A program made the position numbers and the translations under genes. The notes under the pieces were generated by a model that ran no database searches, had not been told where the DNA came from, and saw only the letters and a program-made list of their open reading frames with translations. DNA of 64,000 nucleotides. It comes from Gemmatimonadota bacterium (GTDB taxonomy: Bacteria; Gemmatimonadota; Gemmatimonadetes; Longimicrobiales; Gaopeijiaceae). Shown here piece after piece: positions 12,382 to 22,385 of this stretch (the stretch's first letter is position 1; each line of letters begins with the position of its first letter). The stretch lies in assembly GCA_027623325.1 (NCBI GenBank), contig JAQBXY010000001.1, positions 1 through 64,000 of the forward strand. The letters are read 5' to 3'.

Positions 12382-14331
12382 TCACAGCTCCAGAATCTCG
12401 GTGAGCACTTCTCGAGTGACCGCGTAGAGGGGCGGGACTCCTTCGGCCGCCCGCAAGCGCGCCGACAAGTTCGCATCGTGCCGTAGCGGCAGGTCCGAAG
12501 TGTAGTACAGGAAGCGCAACGCCACGTCCTGCGAGATCGCTCCCCGGTTCATCGATTGAACGAGATGGCGAAGATAGAACGCACCCTCCATCTCGAGGCC
12601 CATGCACCGCCAGATATGCCGATTGAAATGAAGCATCGTGCGGTTCTGCAACAGCGTCCCGGTCACCGTCAGCATAGTGCCGACGTGGACACGCCGGTCG
12701 GGCAGGCGTGCACGCAGCCTAGAGAGATCCATCCTGCCATCTCCTGGGATGGCGTGGAAGTGGTTCCGGTACTGCTCGACGAAACCCGTCGCCACGAGCA
12801 CATCGCCGCGCTCTCCAACGAGTCCTCCCGCCTTCCCCAGGACGTTCACACTGGCGAGGTTGCGGCCGAAGAGGGACGCGAGATTTCCGACGATGTGTTC
12901 GGCCTGTTCACCGAATGCGTAGTCGATGTTCACCACGAGCGACGGCCGGCTCGGCGCCGCGTTGGGAATCCCCGGATCAGTGTCACTCCATTGAACCCGC
13001 GCCGTGTCGATGAGTTGGACCGCGATCCCCGTGAAAGCCGTCCACCCGAGGTTCAGAATGCCGGCCTGCCGTTCAGCACGAGCCCTCTCTTCTCTGCGCT
13101 CAGGTGACGCCCCCACGTAGTCGCGCGCCAGGGCACACGCGAGGTCGTACTCGTCATGCCAGAGGTCGTCGGCAAACGGATGCCCCGATGACCGGCCCCA
13201 CTCTAGAATGTCCTGCGCGTTCCGACCGATCCACGGACTGAGGCAATTCGGTACGGAATGGGTGTTGCTGCTGATCACGTGCACGGCCAGATCGCTCGGA
13301 AGGTCGGCCGGATCGCAGCCGTACAGTGTCCGGGTGGCCTCTGCGATCTGTTTGCACCACGTCTCGGCGTGGGCGCTGTTGTAGTCGTTGGGCTCTTTGT
13401 GCACCTCGATCCGAAAGTCCTCGTGGTGCATCGCGATCTCTTTCACTCTGTCGGCCGTGTCGGACGGCCATATCGTAGCGAGTGAGTCGAGGCCTACCTC
13501 TCCCACGAAGTCGAGGCCTCCACGATCCCGCACCCGGCGCCGAATCTTGCGCGCCTCGATGGTATAGAGACACAAGCAGCTGATCAGGTCGACCAGATCC
13601 GATGCGCCGTCTCGGACGAGCACCATGTTCTTACCCGGTATCATCTCATACACGGCCCGACGTCGCGCAGCGGTGGGCACCGCGCGAAACCGTGAATCCG
13701 GGTCGACGTAGAGCGCCGGCAACGTCTCGGTCAGATAGAAGGCGAGCGTCCGCGTAAGGTTGTCGGGGAGCCTTCTGACGGCGTAGGTGAGCGCCCCGAT
13801 GTCCAGTTCGTCGGGGTTGGTCGCTCCCGGATGCAACGCAGGCTCGAGCTGTTGGTAGAACGGCAGGAGCCGCTCCAGATCAATCGAGCCCCTCCCCACC
13901 GCACGGAGCAGTTCGAGCAGAAACCGATCGAAGGGCGCAAAGATCGCTTGCTTGCTCCGGAGGATCCCACCGAGCGCCTGGGCGAAGGGCGTCGACTCGT
14001 GGACCAGTCGAAGGAACCGATCTCCTGACATTGTGAGTGCGCGCACGGCCTCCGCGGCTTGCACCTCGACAGCGCGGGGCTCGTCAAACAGAGCTGCCCG
14101 TTCCCCTATGTAGTGGCCCGCCGTAACCGTTCGGGGAGGGCCCCTGTCGGCGAACCTCCTGTCGAGGAGCCGCACCGATCCTTCCGCGATGAGAAACACC
14201 CTCGTGTCCTCCCGATCGCCCTGCTCGATCAGGACCTCACCGGGCTCGAACGTCTCCTCGGTGAGGTCCCCTCTAAGGGCCTCCCGCTGCTCGGGTGACA
14301 GATACCGGAACGGGATGACCTGATCGAGCAT
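12382..14331 (-). CDS. cNMP-binding domain fused to a phosphorylase-like domain
   Basis: This is a 649-residue protein. Residues 10-110 form a cyclic-nucleotide-binding domain with an intact phosphate-binding cassette (GERAALFDEPRAVEV, 76-90). The middle is a helical region of unknown type. The C-terminal 160 residues look like the purine nucleoside phosphorylase/MTA nucleosidase fold: NVLGKAGGLVGERGDVLVAT, then GLEMEGAFYLRHL (578-590) matching the catalytic glutamate motif, and YYTSDLPL (609-616) matching the family's ISD segment. It may belong to a DUF6909-type family, but I cannot confirm that. It is sandwiched with six-base gaps between a small protein and an MscS channel. The phosphorylase assignment is inference from motifs. 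Confidence 0.65.
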   Translation of the reverse strand: MLDQVIPFRYLSPEQREALRGDLTEETFEPGEVLIEQGDREDTRVFLIAEGSVRLLDRRFADRGPPRTVTAGHYIGERAALFDEPRAVEVQAAEAVRALTMSGDRFLRLVHESTPFAQALGGILRSKQAIFAPFDRFLLELLRAVGRGSIDLERLLPFYQQLEPALHPGATNPDELDIGALTYAVRRLPDNLTRTLAFYLTETLPALYVDPDSRFRAVPTAARRRAVYEMIPGKNMVLVRDGASDLVDLISCLCLYTIEARKIRRRVRDRGGLDFVGEVGLDSLATIWPSDTADRVKEIAMHHEDFRIEVHKEPNDYNSAHAETWCKQIAEATRTLYGCDPADLPSDLAVHVISSNTHSVPNCLSPWIGRNAQDILEWGRSSGHPFADDLWHDEYDLACALARDYVGASPERREERARAERQAGILNLGWTAFTGIAVQLIDTARVQWSDTDPGIPNAAPSRPSLVVNIDYAFGEQAEHIVGNLASLFGRNLASVNVLGKAGGLVGERGDVLVATGFVEQYRNHFHAIPGDGRMDLSRLRARLPDRRVHVGTMLTVTGTLLQNRTMLHFNRHIWRCMGLEMEGAFYLRHLVQSMNRGAISQDVALRFLYYTSDLPLRHDANLSARLRAAEGVPPLYAVTREVLTEILEL

Positions 14332-14337
14332 CTCGGT

Positions 14338-14760
14338 CTAGGCGCTCGCTGCCAGACTCGCGAAATACTCCCGCATCGCGACCATGCGCTCGGGAGCGCC
14401 CGGCCAATCCTTGGCGACCTGCTCCACGTTCTTGAACAGGCCCGGCTGCCCTGTGGCCGCGCGCACCTCTTCGATCATGTGCTCCACCTTGCAGTACATA
14501 GCCAATAGTTCACCGCAGGTGTCGTAGAACATCGGAGCGTCCAAAGCGCCATGAACGACGAAAGTGGCAGCCATGTCCCAATAGCCCGCGGCCATTCGGA
14601 GAAAAACGCCGTTCTCTGAACCCATGGCCGCCACCACGTCCTCGGGAGAGGACGGGTTGAAGGAGCGTACGCACCAATTCCTCGCCTCGCGAAGCTTCGG
14701 GTCACGGCGGATCTCATACAGGCGCATCAGCGTCTGGGCGTTCTCGTGAGGAGTGCTCAA
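14338..14760 (-). CDS. Small helical protein of unknown function (DUF4760-like)
   Basis: This 140-residue soluble, alpha-helical protein has segments such as LMRLYEIRRDPKLREARNWC, FLRMAAGYWDMAATFVVHGA and CGELLAMYCKVEHMIEEVRA, which recall DUF4760-type proteins, though no catalytic motif is seen. The start codon is TTG at 14760 with AAAGGGAAG upstream. It is the first firmly supported gene of a leftward operon with the cNMP-binding/phosphorylase-like protein and the MscS channel. That context suggests a shared role in a signalling or stress response. Function unknown. Confidence 0.7.
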   Translation of the reverse strand: MSTPHENAQTLMRLYEIRRDPKLREARNWCVRSFNPSSPEDVVAAMGSENGVFLRMAAGYWDMAATFVVHGALDAPMFYDTCGELLAMYCKVEHMIEEVRAATGQPGLFKNVEQVAKDWPGAPERMVAMREYFASLAASA

Positions 14761-17065: not shown

Positions 17066-18847
17066 TTAGGAGCCGCTCCCGCCCACGATGGCCAGCGGAA
17101 TATCGCCGAGCCCACTCCGTTGCGGGTTCTGGCGGCCGTTGGTTGCACCACGAACGCTCTCGCTCACGTGCTCGAAGAGTTCGGTGAACGTGACGATCCC
17201 GTTTCCGTCGCGATCACCCGCGCCACGCAGGCCGTCGAGCATGAAGTGGGTGAAGACGCCATGGCCTCCCCAACGCTCGTCCTCGAGGCTGAACTCGTTC
17301 GTATCGGCAGCCGTCATCATGAGGCGTCGAGACGGGGAAAACAGTCCCTGGAAGCCACCGGCGATCTCGTTTGCCTCGCCACCACCAACCGCGTCTCCGT
17401 CGGCCGTACCCGCAGAGTGGCACGCGTCCGCAATGACCAGAACGCGTTCCGCAGCGATCTGCCTACGCAGTGCCACCTTCACGTCCCACATGGGGAAGCC
17501 CGTAGCCGCGAGCGAGCCGAGATCAGCGTCGGTTGGGAGCAAATACAGGTTGTCCGGGCGGCCCGGGTCCGGCGCCCCATGCCCGGCATAGTAGATGACC
17601 ACGAGATCATCCCAATCCGCCTGCTGCAAGAAGACGAACAGCGCCTCCCTCATGGCGGCCCCTGTCGCCTGCTCGTTTTCCAGATACAGAACTTCGTCGA
17701 ACGGACCAGCCGCGTCGCTTTCGAGAAAGTCCTTCACAGCCCGCGCATCGGCCGGCGCGAACTCCAGATCGGGAATATCCTCGGACGCATACTCGCCCAC
17801 GCCGACCACGACGGCCCACCGCTTGTCGATGCGCGGCGCTGCGAACGTCTGCACAGTCTGGCCGCCTGAGCCGCGAGCGACGATGTGGACGCTGTCCTGA
17901 CTGATCGGCAGAGTAAACTCCCTCGTGAACCGACGCGCGGTGGCCCCACCGAGGCCGAGACGCGAAATCTCCTCCGCAGTCATCGCTTCCATCTGAGCCG
18001 GTTGGCCGTGGACCTCGACGCCATCCGCGTCTCCGACGACCACACCCTCAAGTCGGACCACGTTCTGCACGCCCGAAAGCCCTCCCTGATTTCGGCGCAT
18101 CACGCCGATGCCTCGGGTCGCGGCACCTCCATCTGCAGGAAGGACATCCGCGCGCAGCACGGCCAAACCGGGTGCTGTTCCGCCTCCCCCATTCGATGAC
18201 GGAGCGGCACTCGCGGTCTGGGAGGTCGCAGCCTGTACCGAACCTGGGTCGGGAACCCAATACGCCGCCTCCTGCCACGTGCGGGACTCCCAGTCGTTGA
18301 GCACGGGCCCGATAAACTGCCCGATCACTTCCTGTGTGGCGGCACGGATGGCCTTGGCACGAGCGGCCTGATCGGTCGCCTCAATCGCACGTGCGTCGGC
18401 GACCGCCGTAGAGACCACCTGACCCAAGTCGAGTCGCAGCGCTCGCACAGCGACCTCGGTGGTCGCCGTGATAAGCGAGCCACCACCCGGCGAAGCACGA
18501 GTCGCGTAGTCGGCCACGCCCAGGATGAGAACCTGTGCGCCCCAGTCCCGGCCCAGTTGCGTAGCGGCGCCGTCGTTGCCGTTCATCGCCGCGGCGACGA
18601 GTGCCTGTGCCGACGCATCGATCGCGAGAGCAGGATCGATCACTGGGAAACCAGCCTCGAGCAGAAAAGCGGTCATTTCACGGGACGCGACCTTGCCTCG
18701 TCCCTCTTCCTGAATGAACACCATCGTGCGCGGGAGTTCGCCCGAAAAGACGATCGCCTGTCCGGCGAGGACGCTCGGGAGAAGCAGGAGGCCAGCGAAG
18801 AACAGCATCGCCGGCCTGCACGCGCCCGTGGTCATATTGCCTCTCAT
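17066..18847 (-). CDS. Exported caspase-like (C14) peptidase with CsgG-like N-terminal domain
   Basis: This 593-residue protein has a signal peptide (residues 10-30, ending VLAGQ). Residues 35-190 form a domain resembling CsgG/LpoB-type lipoprotein cores (VLILGVADYATR). A Gly/Ser/Ala linker follows, then a beta domain at 225-340. The C-terminal peptidase C14 domain (343-593) carries the catalytic dyad: His423 in IYYAGHGAP and Cys476 in LVIADACHSAG. A canonical EF-hand loop, DRDGNGIVTFTE (545-556), lies inside it, suggesting calcium dependence as in metacaspases. The ATG at 18847 follows the stop of the CsgG gene by four bases with GGAGG upstream. The two genes form an operon. Confidence 0.85.
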   Translation of the reverse strand: MRGNMTTGACRPAMLFFAGLLLLPSVLAGQAIVFSGELPRTMVFIQEEGRGKVASREMTAFLLEAGFPVIDPALAIDASAQALVAAAMNGNDGAATQLGRDWGAQVLILGVADYATRASPGGGSLITATTEVAVRALRLDLGQVVSTAVADARAIEATDQAARAKAIRAATQEVIGQFIGPVLNDWESRTWQEAAYWVPDPGSVQAATSQTASAAPSSNGGGGTAPGLAVLRADVLPADGGAATRGIGVMRRNQGGLSGVQNVVRLEGVVVGDADGVEVHGQPAQMEAMTAEEISRLGLGGATARRFTREFTLPISQDSVHIVARGSGGQTVQTFAAPRIDKRWAVVVGVGEYASEDIPDLEFAPADARAVKDFLESDAAGPFDEVLYLENEQATGAAMREALFVFLQQADWDDLVVIYYAGHGAPDPGRPDNLYLLPTDADLGSLAATGFPMWDVKVALRRQIAAERVLVIADACHSAGTADGDAVGGGEANEIAGGFQGLFSPSRRLMMTAADTNEFSLEDERWGGHGVFTHFMLDGLRGAGDRDGNGIVTFTELFEHVSESVRGATNGRQNPQRSGLGDIPLAIVGGSGS

Positions 18848-18851
18848 TGAT

Positions 18852-19538
18852 CTATGTACCTCCCCGGAGACGCTCCAACGCTCGTCGAGCATCCCGATGA
18901 TTCGGGTGAATCGCCAACGTCGCCTCGTAGCGCGCGATGGCTTGGGCAGTTTCTCCTCGGTCCTCGAGATCCACTGCTCGACTGAACTCGATCGTGGCGC
19001 CGACAGGAATCGGCTCCATCGCCGGCCGCTGGGACGGAGGAACGAGGTTGAGCTTCGCCCCGAATTCGTCGGCCAGATCAACGACCACCGCGAAGAGCTC
19101 ACTGGTCTTGTTGGACTTCTTGAGTACAGTCACGATCTCGGACGTTTCGACGTCGACCGCACGGATGTCCATCCTGAAATTGTCGACGATGCTCGTAACC
19201 TGGCCGTGCAGCACGTACTGCACGCCCAACATCTTCCCGACCTCGATCGCGTCGGACTCTTCGATGCGGCCTGACAGGTTCAGGTCCTGTTCACGCAACA
19301 ACTCGTTCAGCTGCGCGCGCTCGACGACCACCAGTCCGGGTCGACTGCTGAACTCGGTGACGAGCATGGCGCTGATGGCTTTCCCGAGGTTCACCGAGGC
19401 ACCGCCCTCACCCATCATGAAGCTGCTGAAGTCCATGACGGCGATCGTTGGAATGTCTTGGGCCCACGACGAGGTCGCGGTAGAACCAAGAACGGCCACC
19501 GCAAGACCAGCGGACAAGACGATCGAGCGTTTACGCAT
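18852..19538 (-). CDS. Exported CsgG-family protein
   Basis: This 228-residue protein has a Sec signal peptide (to about residue 26, SSWAQ) and a CsgG/HfaB-type domain (IAVMDFSSFMMGEGGASVNL, LVTEFSSRPGLVVVERAQLN, then the GVQYVLHGQVTSIVDNFRMD segment). The C-terminal 40 residues form one TPR-like helix pair (RGETAQAIARYEATLAIHPN). CsgG proteins form outer-membrane secretion pores for curli; this family member lacks an obvious lipobox, so pore formation is not assured. GAGGAGAACCG precedes the ATG at 19538. It is first in the operon with the caspase-like protein and divergent from a second CsgG-like lipoprotein. Confidence 0.85.
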   Translation of the reverse strand: MRKRSIVLSAGLAVAVLGSTATSSWAQDIPTIAVMDFSSFMMGEGGASVNLGKAISAMLVTEFSSRPGLVVVERAQLNELLREQDLNLSGRIEESDAIEVGKMLGVQYVLHGQVTSIVDNFRMDIRAVDVETSEIVTVLKKSNKTSELFAVVVDLADEFGAKLNLVPPSQRPAMEPIPVGATIEFSRAVDLEDRGETAQAIARYEATLAIHPNHRDARRALERLRGGT

Positions 19539-19584
19539 TCGGTTCTCCTCAACCGGGGATTCAATCCCCGAGGGGCCAGCCGGG

Positions 19585-19645
19585 GGAGGTGCGAAAGGCG
19601 GGCAAAACAGGAAATTTTTCCTTTGCCCGCCGATTGGCCACCTCC
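19585..19645. promoter_or_regulatory. Large structured inverted repeat in divergent promoter region
   Basis: A perfect 10-bp inverted repeat (GGCGGGCAAA at 19597-19606, TTTGCCCGCC at 19622-19631) surrounds an AT-rich 15-base loop. A second 7-bp pair (GGAGGTG at 19585-19591, CACCTCC at 19639-19645) lies outside it. The element sits midway between the CsgG/caspase operon and the TPR/CsgG lipoprotein gene. It could be a shared operator or a folded 5' leader. It is not followed by a U tract on either strand, so termination is unlikely. Confidence 0.5.
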
Positions 19646-19746
19646 TTAGTTTATAGTGGTACCAAAGGGGATGCGAGAAGATTCTTCTGCTCGGCTCCCC
19701 TTGTTTTGTCTCGTAACGTCTTGCCGCTCCCAAAGGAGCTCCGCCC

Positions 19747-21252
19747 ATGATGTACCCCTCAAAACGCCCAGCGAGGCACTCCTTTCTCCTCGCGCTCGGT
19801 CTGGGGCTGTCCGCCTGTGCAGGCGGCTTACCCGAGGTACAGCCGGTCGATATTCCCCGGCTCCAGCAGGAGGTCGCGGCTTCGCCCGACAATTCGAACC
19901 TGCATGTGCAACTGGGCATGGCGCACTTCAAGGCTACGGATTACGAGGCGGCGCGGGTCTCGCTTCAGCGAGCGGTCGACGCCGGCAACGAGACCGGTCC
20001 GGCGTTCCTCTATCTGGGTATGGTGCAGGAAGAGCTGCAGGATTGGTCCGCAGCCCGCGAAGCGTACAACCGGTATCTGGGCGTGGGCGCCTCGGCGCCG
20101 GCCCGCGGCGAGGTCCGAAAGCGCCTCACCCTGATCGGTCGCAATCTCCTGCGGGCCCAGGCTCAGCAAGCGTTGGCCCAGGAGCAGGAAATCACGGCGA
20201 CCGGGCAGATCACACCACAGTCCGTCGCGGTGCTCCCCCTCGCCTTCAATTCTGACCGTGAGGACTTGGAGCCGCTGATCTACGCGCTCTCCGACATGAT
20301 GATCACGGACTTTAAGGTGTCCAACGCGCTCATCGTGCTCGAGCGGGCTCAGATCCAGACGCTCCTCGACGAGATGGCCCTGAGTTCCGCCGGTTATGCC
20401 GAACCGACGACAGGCGCCCGGGCAGGCAGGTTGCTCCGGGCCGAACACGTGTTCCAGGGCGTTCTCACGACACTCGGCGACAATGATCTCCAGACCGACG
20501 CCGATGTATTGAACGTTCCGAGCAGCGCGTCAGCGGGGCAGCTGACCGAATCGGCGGTGCTCGAGCAGCTGTTCGACATGGAGAAACAAATCGTCATCCG
20601 GACGATCCGTGAACTTCTCGGCGTTGAACTGACGCCGGCCGAAGAGCAGGCGATTCTCGAGAATCGCATGGGGAACGTGCTCGCCTTCCTCGCTTACGGC
20701 GGAGGACTCCGCGAATTGGACCGCGGAAACTACGACGCGGCGCAGGCAGAGTTCGAGCTCGCGGCATCGCTTGAGCCCGGAGGGTTCCAGGGCTTGGAGG
20801 TTGCGATGGCGGAGGCAGCGGCAATGACGGACGCAGCCGCAGCAGCCACTGCCGATCTCGCCGGCGTTGCGAGCGCGACTGGAGAGACCGGAGCCGGTGT
20901 CCTGGCACCTCCATCGGCAGCCACCACGGAAGGCATCGGTGCACTCGCCCCAGCGGCGCCCGTGGGAGCGTCGTCGACGACCCCCGGTCAGACACCGCCA
21001 CCCGGGCAGTCGCCTACACCAGGAAGGATTTCAATCAGCACGCTTACAAACGTCGCCGAGGGGGTCGATCCGACACCCACAGCAAGCACGCTGAATCTGG
21101 GCTCGACCTCGCAGAGCCGGGACCAGACCACGGCTCAAACCCAGGATACCAATCGTGATCCGGCCCAGGAGGCACAGAACCAGGAGAGTGTTCCTGGCAC
21201 GGCTCAGGCTCAGATCCGTATCGTGATTGTTCGGCCCGGAGGTGAGCTGTGA
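19747..21252 (+). CDS. Lipoprotein with TPR and CsgG-like domains
   Basis: This 501-residue lipoprotein has the lipobox LSAC with Cys24. Residues 40-130 are TPR repeats (LHVQLGMAHFKATDYEAARV, AFLYLGMVQEELQDWSAARE). Residues 160-300 form a CsgG-like core (SVAVLPLAFNSDREDLEPLI, MMITDFKVSNALIVLERAQI, LLRAEHVFQGVLTTLGDNDL). Another TPR-like pair follows, and then a long Ala/Thr/Pro/Gln-rich disordered tail (350-490). The arrangement suggests a periplasm-facing assembly factor anchored in the outer membrane. ATG 19747 has AAAGGAG upstream. Its stop overlaps the next start (TGATG), so it is translated together with the beta-barrel protein. Confidence 0.82.
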   Translation: MMYPSKRPARHSFLLALGLGLSACAGGLPEVQPVDIPRLQQEVAASPDNSNLHVQLGMAHFKATDYEAARVSLQRAVDAGNETGPAFLYLGMVQEELQDWSAAREAYNRYLGVGASAPARGEVRKRLTLIGRNLLRAQAQQALAQEQEITATGQITPQSVAVLPLAFNSDREDLEPLIYALSDMMITDFKVSNALIVLERAQIQTLLDEMALSSAGYAEPTTGARAGRLLRAEHVFQGVLTTLGDNDLQTDADVLNVPSSASAGQLTESAVLEQLFDMEKQIVIRTIRELLGVELTPAEEQAILENRMGNVLAFLAYGGGLRELDRGNYDAAQAEFELAASLEPGGFQGLEVAMAEAAAMTDAAAAATADLAGVASATGETGAGVLAPPSAATTEGIGALAPAAPVGASSTTPGQTPPPGQSPTPGRISISTLTNVAEGVDPTPTASTLNLGSTSQSRDQTTAQTQDTNRDPAQEAQNQESVPGTAQAQIRIVIVRPGGEL

Positions 21253-22385
21253 TGTCACGCGGCCTGCGGTTCGCGCTCGGTGCGTCGCTCCTCGTCGCGA
21301 CGGTGCAACCGGTGTCGGCACAGTACGTCATCGGTGGCGGCGTCGACTACGTAGGGTACACGTTCGACGCCGGACTCGGCGCCGACGCAGCTCAACTCTT
21401 CATGATCCCCGTGGCAGTCCGGATCCCTGTGTCGGACGCACTCACCTTCGATCTGTTCGGTGCGTGGGCCGAAGGCAGGGTCGAACAGGAAAACACGGTC
21501 CTGACGCTCGCGGGGCCGGTCGACGCGAGCATCAAGGCTTCCTATCAGGCCACACCGTGGGCGCTCGTTTCGATCGGCGCCAACATCCCGACGGGAAACG
21601 CCACGCACACGAACGAGGAGGCCATCGTAGCATCGGTCTTGTCGACCGACCTCCTGGGCTTCCGCGAAGCCACCTGGGGAACCGGCCTCGCATTCACCAC
21701 GTCGGTCGCGACCGCAGCGACCGCGGGAGGTTTCGGACTCGGGATCGCAGCGGCTTATGCCGTCCGCGGCGAGTTCGAACCGAGCGCGGACGATCCGCTC
21801 AAGTATCAGCCAGGAACCGAGACGCGCGTTCGGCTCGGAGTCGATCGCAATTTCGGAAACAGCACGTTTACGGCGGGTGCATCGTTCATCAATTACACCG
21901 AGGACAAGGCCAACAAGGAGAACCTCTTTCAGGCCGGCAACCGGCTCCGCTTCGACGCGACCTTCGCCTTTCGCGCCGGTGCCGGAATCTGGACGATCTA
22001 CGGAGCCAATTTGATGCGCGAGAACGGAGATCTCCGCCTCGATGTCATCGATGAGTTGGGACAGTTGGTGGGACAGGAGACGATCACGACAGCCAAGCAG
22101 AACATGATCGTGGGCGGACTGATGGGCACGGTGGGCCTCGGCGGCGGCTTCGTCTTCCGTCCCCATCTGGACTACAAGATGCAGACCCGCGAAGAGGAAG
22201 ACGGAAACGAGGCCGGATCGGGTTGGATCCTCGCCGCGGGTGGAGACATTCCGCTCCGGATCTTCGGTGGCTACGACTTCTTCCCGAAGGCTCGTGTCTT
22301 CTTCGGGTCGCTCCAAGACGCGGCCGGTGGCAACATCTCTCTTCTGGGTATGGAATTCAAAGGGACGATGCGCTGGGCCTTCTGA
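21252..22385 (+). CDS. Outer-membrane beta-barrel protein
   Basis: This 377-residue protein has a signal peptide (to about residue 23, VSAQ), alternating amphipathic beta strands throughout, and a C-terminal aromatic residue (GMEFKGTMRWAF), the signature recognised by the BAM machinery. It resembles transporter-like outer-membrane barrels in broad pattern only. The ATG at 21252 overlaps the stop of the TPR/CsgG lipoprotein gene; a GTG one codon upstream is also possible. Co-translation with a CsgG-like lipoprotein and divergence from a CsgG/caspase operon suggest one envelope complex. A strong terminator follows. Confidence 0.8.
   Translation: MSRGLRFALGASLLVATVQPVSAQYVIGGGVDYVGYTFDAGLGADAAQLFMIPVAVRIPVSDALTFDLFGAWAEGRVEQENTVLTLAGPVDASIKASYQATPWALVSIGANIPTGNATHTNEEAIVASVLSTDLLGFREATWGTGLAFTTSVATAATAGGFGLGIAAAYAVRGEFEPSADDPLKYQPGTETRVRLGVDRNFGNSTFTAGASFINYTEDKANKENLFQAGNRLRFDATFAFRAGAGIWTIYGANLMRENGDLRLDVIDELGQLVGQETITTAKQNMIVGGLMGTVGLGGGFVFRPHLDYKMQTREEEDGNEAGSGWILAAGGDIPLRIFGGYDFFPKARVFFGSLQDAAGGNISLLGMEFKGTMRWAF

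Follow-up and report, generated by a model that had tools for sequence, protein, structure and literature searches.

The window analysed here is a 64,000-nt stretch of a Gemmatimonadota contig that belongs to a 3.35 Mb draft genome. At positions 17066-22385 it encodes four exported proteins, here called A, B, C, and D (Table 1). The two operons lie back-to-back, A then B on the (-) strand and C then D on the (+) strand. A preliminary description of this DNA had proposed two coupled operons facing each other; the coupled pairs A-B and C-D were recovered, but the operons point away from one another. Export signals were found by inspection in all four products (Sec signal peptides in A, B, and D; a lipobox in C), which bears out the earlier proposal of an exported four-protein envelope locus. 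RF3 and response regulator genes border the locus on one side, and a phosphofructokinase (PFK) gene borders it on the other. The flanking genes scanned were RF3, the response regulator, PFK, SSF, DUF6909, and DUF4760 (ten window proteins in all). At 12382-14760 of the window, a DUF4760 protein precedes a protein in which a cNMP-binding domain is fused to DUF6909; in G001 (L073), DUF6909 has decayed.

Table 1. Features of the divergent four-gene envelope locus (positions refer to the window)
Feature	Position	Strand	Description
B, exported caspase-like peptidase (C14, orthocaspase type)	17066..18835	-	589 aa, signal peptide
Domains of B			CsgG/TolB/PelC-fold putative docking domain ∼32-181; probable beta-sandwich ∼223-332; caspase ∼339-575
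A, CsgG-like domain plus C-terminal TPR, periplasmic	18852..19538	-	228 aa, Sec signal peptide
Shared divergent intergenic region	19539..19746	.	208 bp, promoter-like sequence
C, outer-membrane lipoprotein	19747..21252	+	501 aa, lipobox LSAC
Order of parts in C			N-terminal TPR, CsgG-like domain, second TPR, low-complexity linker, C-terminal strand IRIVIVRPGG
D, outer-membrane beta-barrel	21249..22385	+	377-378 aa, start GTG 21249 or ATG 21252

The shared intergenic region was inspected by eye together with the intergenic sequences of relatives. An imperfect inverted repeat, GGCGGGCAAA...TTTGCCCGCC, lies upstream of a TATAGT-like box. At the related locus L062 both arms of the repeat are altered together, to GGCGAGCAAAA...TTTTGCTCGCC. 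A perfect 17-bp palindrome, CGGGGATTCAATCCCCG, precedes gene A and is specific to the window.

Protein B scored 64 bits against Pfam Peptidase_C14 (cut-off 21.4). Its catalytic dyad, His419/Cys472, is intact and is invariant in the aligned relatives; the preliminary description had numbered the same residues His423/Cys476, counting from an ATG four codons upstream. B also carries a DACHS motif, the Asp of which we take, by analogy with the family, to fit a basic-residue pocket, and B probably cleaves after Arg/Lys. Identity with the EACC1/defence-type caspases was rejected on score, B reaching 102.7 bits against the EACC1-associated caspase model NF047832, below the curated cut-off of 140. The N-terminus of B had no match in Pfam. 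Taken as a whole, the predicted structure of B is poor (pLDDT 56.7), yet it is good at the N-terminus, and in a structure search model residues 32-181 matched CT253, PelC, TolB-N, CsgG, and FlgT with Z of 10.8-11.8 (11.4 for PelC), with LpoB also among the fold matches. A profile of this domain aligned in register to A, weakly (hhalign probability 29, E = 6e-4). The predicted fold thus confirmed that the N-terminus of B is CsgG-like.

Pfam CsgG matched A at 60.4 bits and C at 28.8 bits (cut-off 20.8), the match to A covering profile positions 6-101 of 210 only. The earlier statement that CsgG-like sequence occurs in three of the four products therefore holds, by sequence for A and C and by predicted fold for the N-terminus of B. 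Proteins A and C are homologous along the CsgG domain and the TPR (hhalign probability 99.8, E = 6e-28), and because they align to each other across both parts we regard them as paralogues. Beyond the core that A represents, C possesses N-terminal TPRs, a lipid anchor, the low-complexity linker, and the C-terminal strand. In Pfam, C also matched TPR_2 (33.1 bits).

Protein A aligned to CsgG in two pieces, A 50-116 with CsgG 57-127 and A 106-144 with CsgG 139-178. Both pieces reuse A residues, and CsgG 128-138 and its neighbours have no counterpart in A; this unmatched stretch is presumably where the first membrane hairpin of CsgG sits. Since the two pieces overlap on A, the intervening segment with the first hairpin is missing from A. 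The second hairpin was also called absent, judged solely from the short A sequence. In contrast, the CsgG partners of the C36-type proteins described below align as a single piece through CsgG 57-177. A is not a lipoprotein. A CsgG pore or curli secretion role for A was rejected on the missing first-hairpin segment in this alignment. The comparison with CsgG put forward earlier thus yielded a related fold, but one that in A is devoid of that segment. A secretion pore is not supported, given the lack of the segment and of any substrate gene among the flanking genes scanned. A profile scan gave weak LpoB, FlgO, and FlgT matches for A, the LpoB score of 20.8 bits lying below the NCBIfam equivalog cut-off of 110.55.

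No Pfam match was found for D. It was predicted as a barrel of roughly 16-18 strands (mean pLDDT 85.6, pTM 0.78), and the solved barrel nearest to it was PelB, as seen in PelBC (Z 20.0), effectively level with PgaA, CdiB, CymA, and BcsC; porins and two-partner secretion barrels lie within 1-2 Z units. The C and D genes overlap by 1-4 nt, an overlap kept in most relatives inspected, and D is translationally coupled to C. The D family was detected in 163 of the 395 phylum genomes sampled, and at nearly every locus read C immediately precedes it. We concluded that lipoprotein C and barrel D form an old pair, translationally coupled and spread across the phylum.

The C-terminal PGG of C was considered as a protein motif and rejected: the Shine-Dalgarno sequence of D falls at the same place, as a result of the overlap between C and D. 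The strand preceding PGG is still conserved among distant relatives and may be in contact with barrel D. Across the phylum, a low-complexity linker in C leads into a C-terminal strand that closes with RRP(GG) (∼21205-21249 in the window). The linker was also considered as a substrate that arose with B, and was rejected, linker-bearing tails of 110-118 aa being present without B as well. The earlier idea of a self-processing complex is not supported, as the linker of C does not track B. In another family of the phylum, C-D lies close to genes identified by eye as yebC, ruvC, and ruvB (L142, L143, L144, L146, L148, L153, and L155). At L087:7724-10057 an apparent Ser/Thr kinase gene, also identified by eye, lies directly upstream of C-D and is co-directional with it.

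Eleven genera, represented by 13 Gemmatimonadota genomes, have the complete divergent A-B/C-D unit: the window genome, G008, G030, G031, G018, G028, G015, G308, G226, G396, G420, G309, and G415. In most of them, as far as the contig covers the site, the unit sits at the RF3/PFK site of the window. This confirmed that the four-gene arrangement recurs far beyond chance, with the dyad intact, the outcome that the preliminary description had named as support. The N-terminal domain of B occurs in 13 of the 395 phylum genomes, always directly after A. The A and B genes overlap or sit within ∼16 nt of each other in the window and its relatives, and they are translationally coupled in the relatives. 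G044 has a single 807-aa frame that joins A and B; there the B part has lost its signal peptide and retains His/Cys. We concluded that A-B is a tight pair; the fusion supports the functional link between the protease and a CsgG-like protein that had been suggested for this locus.

Partial forms of the locus were also found. A is divergent to C-D and B is absent in G017, G206, G409, and G410; A is co-directional with an adjoining C-D in G353, G233, and G412; and A-B lacks an adjacent C-D in G005, G057, and G007, the last with a decayed C-D, which means that the link between the two modules is not required. In the tree of A, B carriers gather on one side (19/23), with at least four independent losses of B within the genus of the window; the fused A-B row forms a long branch and its placement is unsure. 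Two decayed loci retain an intact A, one alongside terminal remnants of B, C, and D (G011, L074:8381-9852) and one with a C-terminal piece of B (G001, L073:9605-10508). B is dispensable in several close relatives. The dN/dS of A between G011 and G013 was 0.18, with synonymous sites near saturation. Purifying selection on A persists where B, C, and D are gone, so A has a role independent of B. We concluded that the locus consists of two modules, C-D and A-B, that differ in age, and is not one obligate machine. Of the single complex proposed earlier, the tie between A and B remains, but A-B and C-D are separate modules.

The window genome encodes a second exported caspase (L075 9420-11318; G000:C36), whose C-terminus is related to the N-terminal domain of B (BLAST E = 7e-5; profile E = 1.3e-6); the putative docking domain is thus placed at opposite ends in the two proteins. 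The gene directly after the second caspase belongs to the CsgG family and matches FlgT_C weakly at its end (both genes at L075:9420-12281). Elsewhere in the phylum the domain is attached to other effectors. G336 (C35, L243:7827-10252) encodes a TIR protein (TIR_2, 82 bits) with the domain at its C-terminus, adjoining a CsgG-family gene, and G353 (C159, L244:277-3589) encodes a Ser/Thr kinase (173 bits), again with the domain C-terminal, whose gene is tail-to-tail with a CsgG-family gene. The TIR protein and the kinase each have an apparent transmembrane segment. In G041, a docking-domain protein cut off by the contig end also adjoins a CsgG-family gene. The phylum sample yielded 14 docking-domain genes of B type and four of C36 type, and each of them either neighbours a CsgG-type partner or is fused to one. 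Being orthologues, the 14 A-B loci do not count as separate events. The four C36-type loci vary both in their effector and in orientation, and the C36-type genes adjoin CsgG genes in two different relative orientations. Beyond B and the four C36-type proteins, the docking-domain profile search returned two weak matches, which by eye are CsgG-fold proteins.

We compared the locus with known systems. With the CsgG curli channel it shares the Pfam CsgG domain in A and C and the predicted fold in B, but A lacks the first-hairpin segment and is no lipoprotein; apart from the CsgG domains themselves, no curli genes were found among the ten window proteins scanned. With the PelB/PelC exporter it would share a CsgG-fold domain without membrane hairpins, a lipoprotein, TPRs, and a large outer-membrane barrel; in PelBC, a 16-strand barrel with TPRs carries a ring of PelC (PMC12141448). 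In the window, however, the TPRs are on lipoprotein C and on A rather than on the barrel chain, and there is a protease partner. No genes for polysaccharide synthesis, including Pel, were present among the flanking genes scanned. B resembles the orthocaspases (family C14) in its caspase domain, intact His/Cys dyad, and DACHS motif, and differs from them in being Sec-exported and in having a CsgG/TolB-type domain and an adjoining CsgG-like partner. A 2012 survey of prokaryotic caspases lists partners including TPR and WD40 as well as N-terminal helices that may be signal peptides, and a term search of it found no architecture joining a caspase with CsgG or a curli component (PMC3501461). Our literature search found no publication pairing a caspase with CsgG; its coverage of subscription journals was thin, which makes this weak evidence.

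The best explanation, to which we give roughly even chances, is a two-module envelope system in which B docks on A through its own CsgG/TolB-type domain, so that the protease is positioned near C-D. Lipoprotein C would present its TPRs and CsgG/PelC/TolB-type domain at the periplasmic side of barrel D, and C-D would seat the complex in the outer membrane. A-B would be an add-on, with A a soluble periplasmic paralogue of the core of C. CsgG/PelC/TolB-type subunits pack into ring or stack assemblies in PelC, CsgG, and FlgT, and the docking of B on A would probably use such ring- or stack-forming surfaces. A would position and control protease B beside C-D, and when the complex changes state, B would cut a protein of the periplasm or outer membrane, Arg/Lys being the probable cleavage residues. 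This explanation is based on exports (inspection), folds (profile and prediction), the dyad, co-inheritance of A and B, one fusion, and domain sharing; we infer the physical docking, oligomer, substrate, and trigger of A-B from these.

The main rival is a PelBC-like export machine, in which D exports, A and C form a funnel and TPR scaffold, and B matures a product encoded elsewhere. The polysaccharide exporters PelB, PgaA, and BcsC are among the nearest solved barrels of D, the hairpin-less CsgG-type domain of B matches PelC, and PelBC is built from parts such as the TPRs of A and C. We nevertheless consider this rather unlikely: porins and two-partner secretion barrels come within 1-2 Z units of those exporters, the scanned flanking genes include none for polysaccharides or a substrate, C-D elsewhere has housekeeping genes as neighbours, and B is rare among D carriers (13 vs. 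163 genomes). Envelope maintenance, with A and C as LpoB/TolB-type sensors or regulators of envelope assembly and B as an ordinary periplasmic quality-control protease, would fit the weak LpoB/FlgO/FlgT matches of A, the presence of LpoB and TolB among the fold matches of the domain of B, and the purifying selection on A after loss of B, C, and D. The LpoB score of A (20.8 bits) against the NCBIfam cut-off (110.6) and the absence of a penicillin-binding protein among the flanking genes scanned make it unlikely.

A very improbable reading is that the genes are unrelated passengers at a conserved RF3/PFK insertion site, linked by history and not by function. The shared site in many relatives and the separate losses of B, C, and D in some species would agree with it, but the A-B fusion in G044, the conserved translational coupling of both pairs, the recurrence of A-B-type domain pairs at other loci with differing gene order and orientation, and the fact that B never occurs without A all speak against it.

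We suggest tentatively, as a possibility short of even likelihood, a modular envelope signalling or death system in which a CsgG-family periplasmic sensor/scaffold works with a docking domain that has interchangeable effectors. The effectors would be an exported caspase (in two domain orders) or a TIR or Ser/Thr kinase anchored in the membrane, its effector part facing the cytoplasm. Conflict systems that swap TIR, kinase, and caspase effectors (e.g. PMC7159879) resemble this arrangement, in which such effectors are joined to one common accessory domain. They differ in that the accessory domain of the present case is CsgG-like and by prediction periplasmic, and any part it plays in defence would be conjectural. 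If the modular system is true, the sensor in the window would be tied to an outer-membrane lipoprotein/barrel complex, and envelope damage or surface contact would turn on a periplasmic caspase.

Bacterial caspase homologues have mostly been studied as cytosolic stress or defence proteases. The exported caspase relative described here, from many genera of soil and sediment Gemmatimonadota, has a partner that is conserved and in one genome naturally fused to it, and its docking domain is common to other effectors. C-D is newly defined as a phylum-wide lipoprotein/barrel pair. CsgG-type domains in Gemmatimonadota need not signal curli secretion, as annotation pipelines may assume. The docking domain, fused elsewhere to other signalling domains, suggests a new design of envelope protease/signalling switch.
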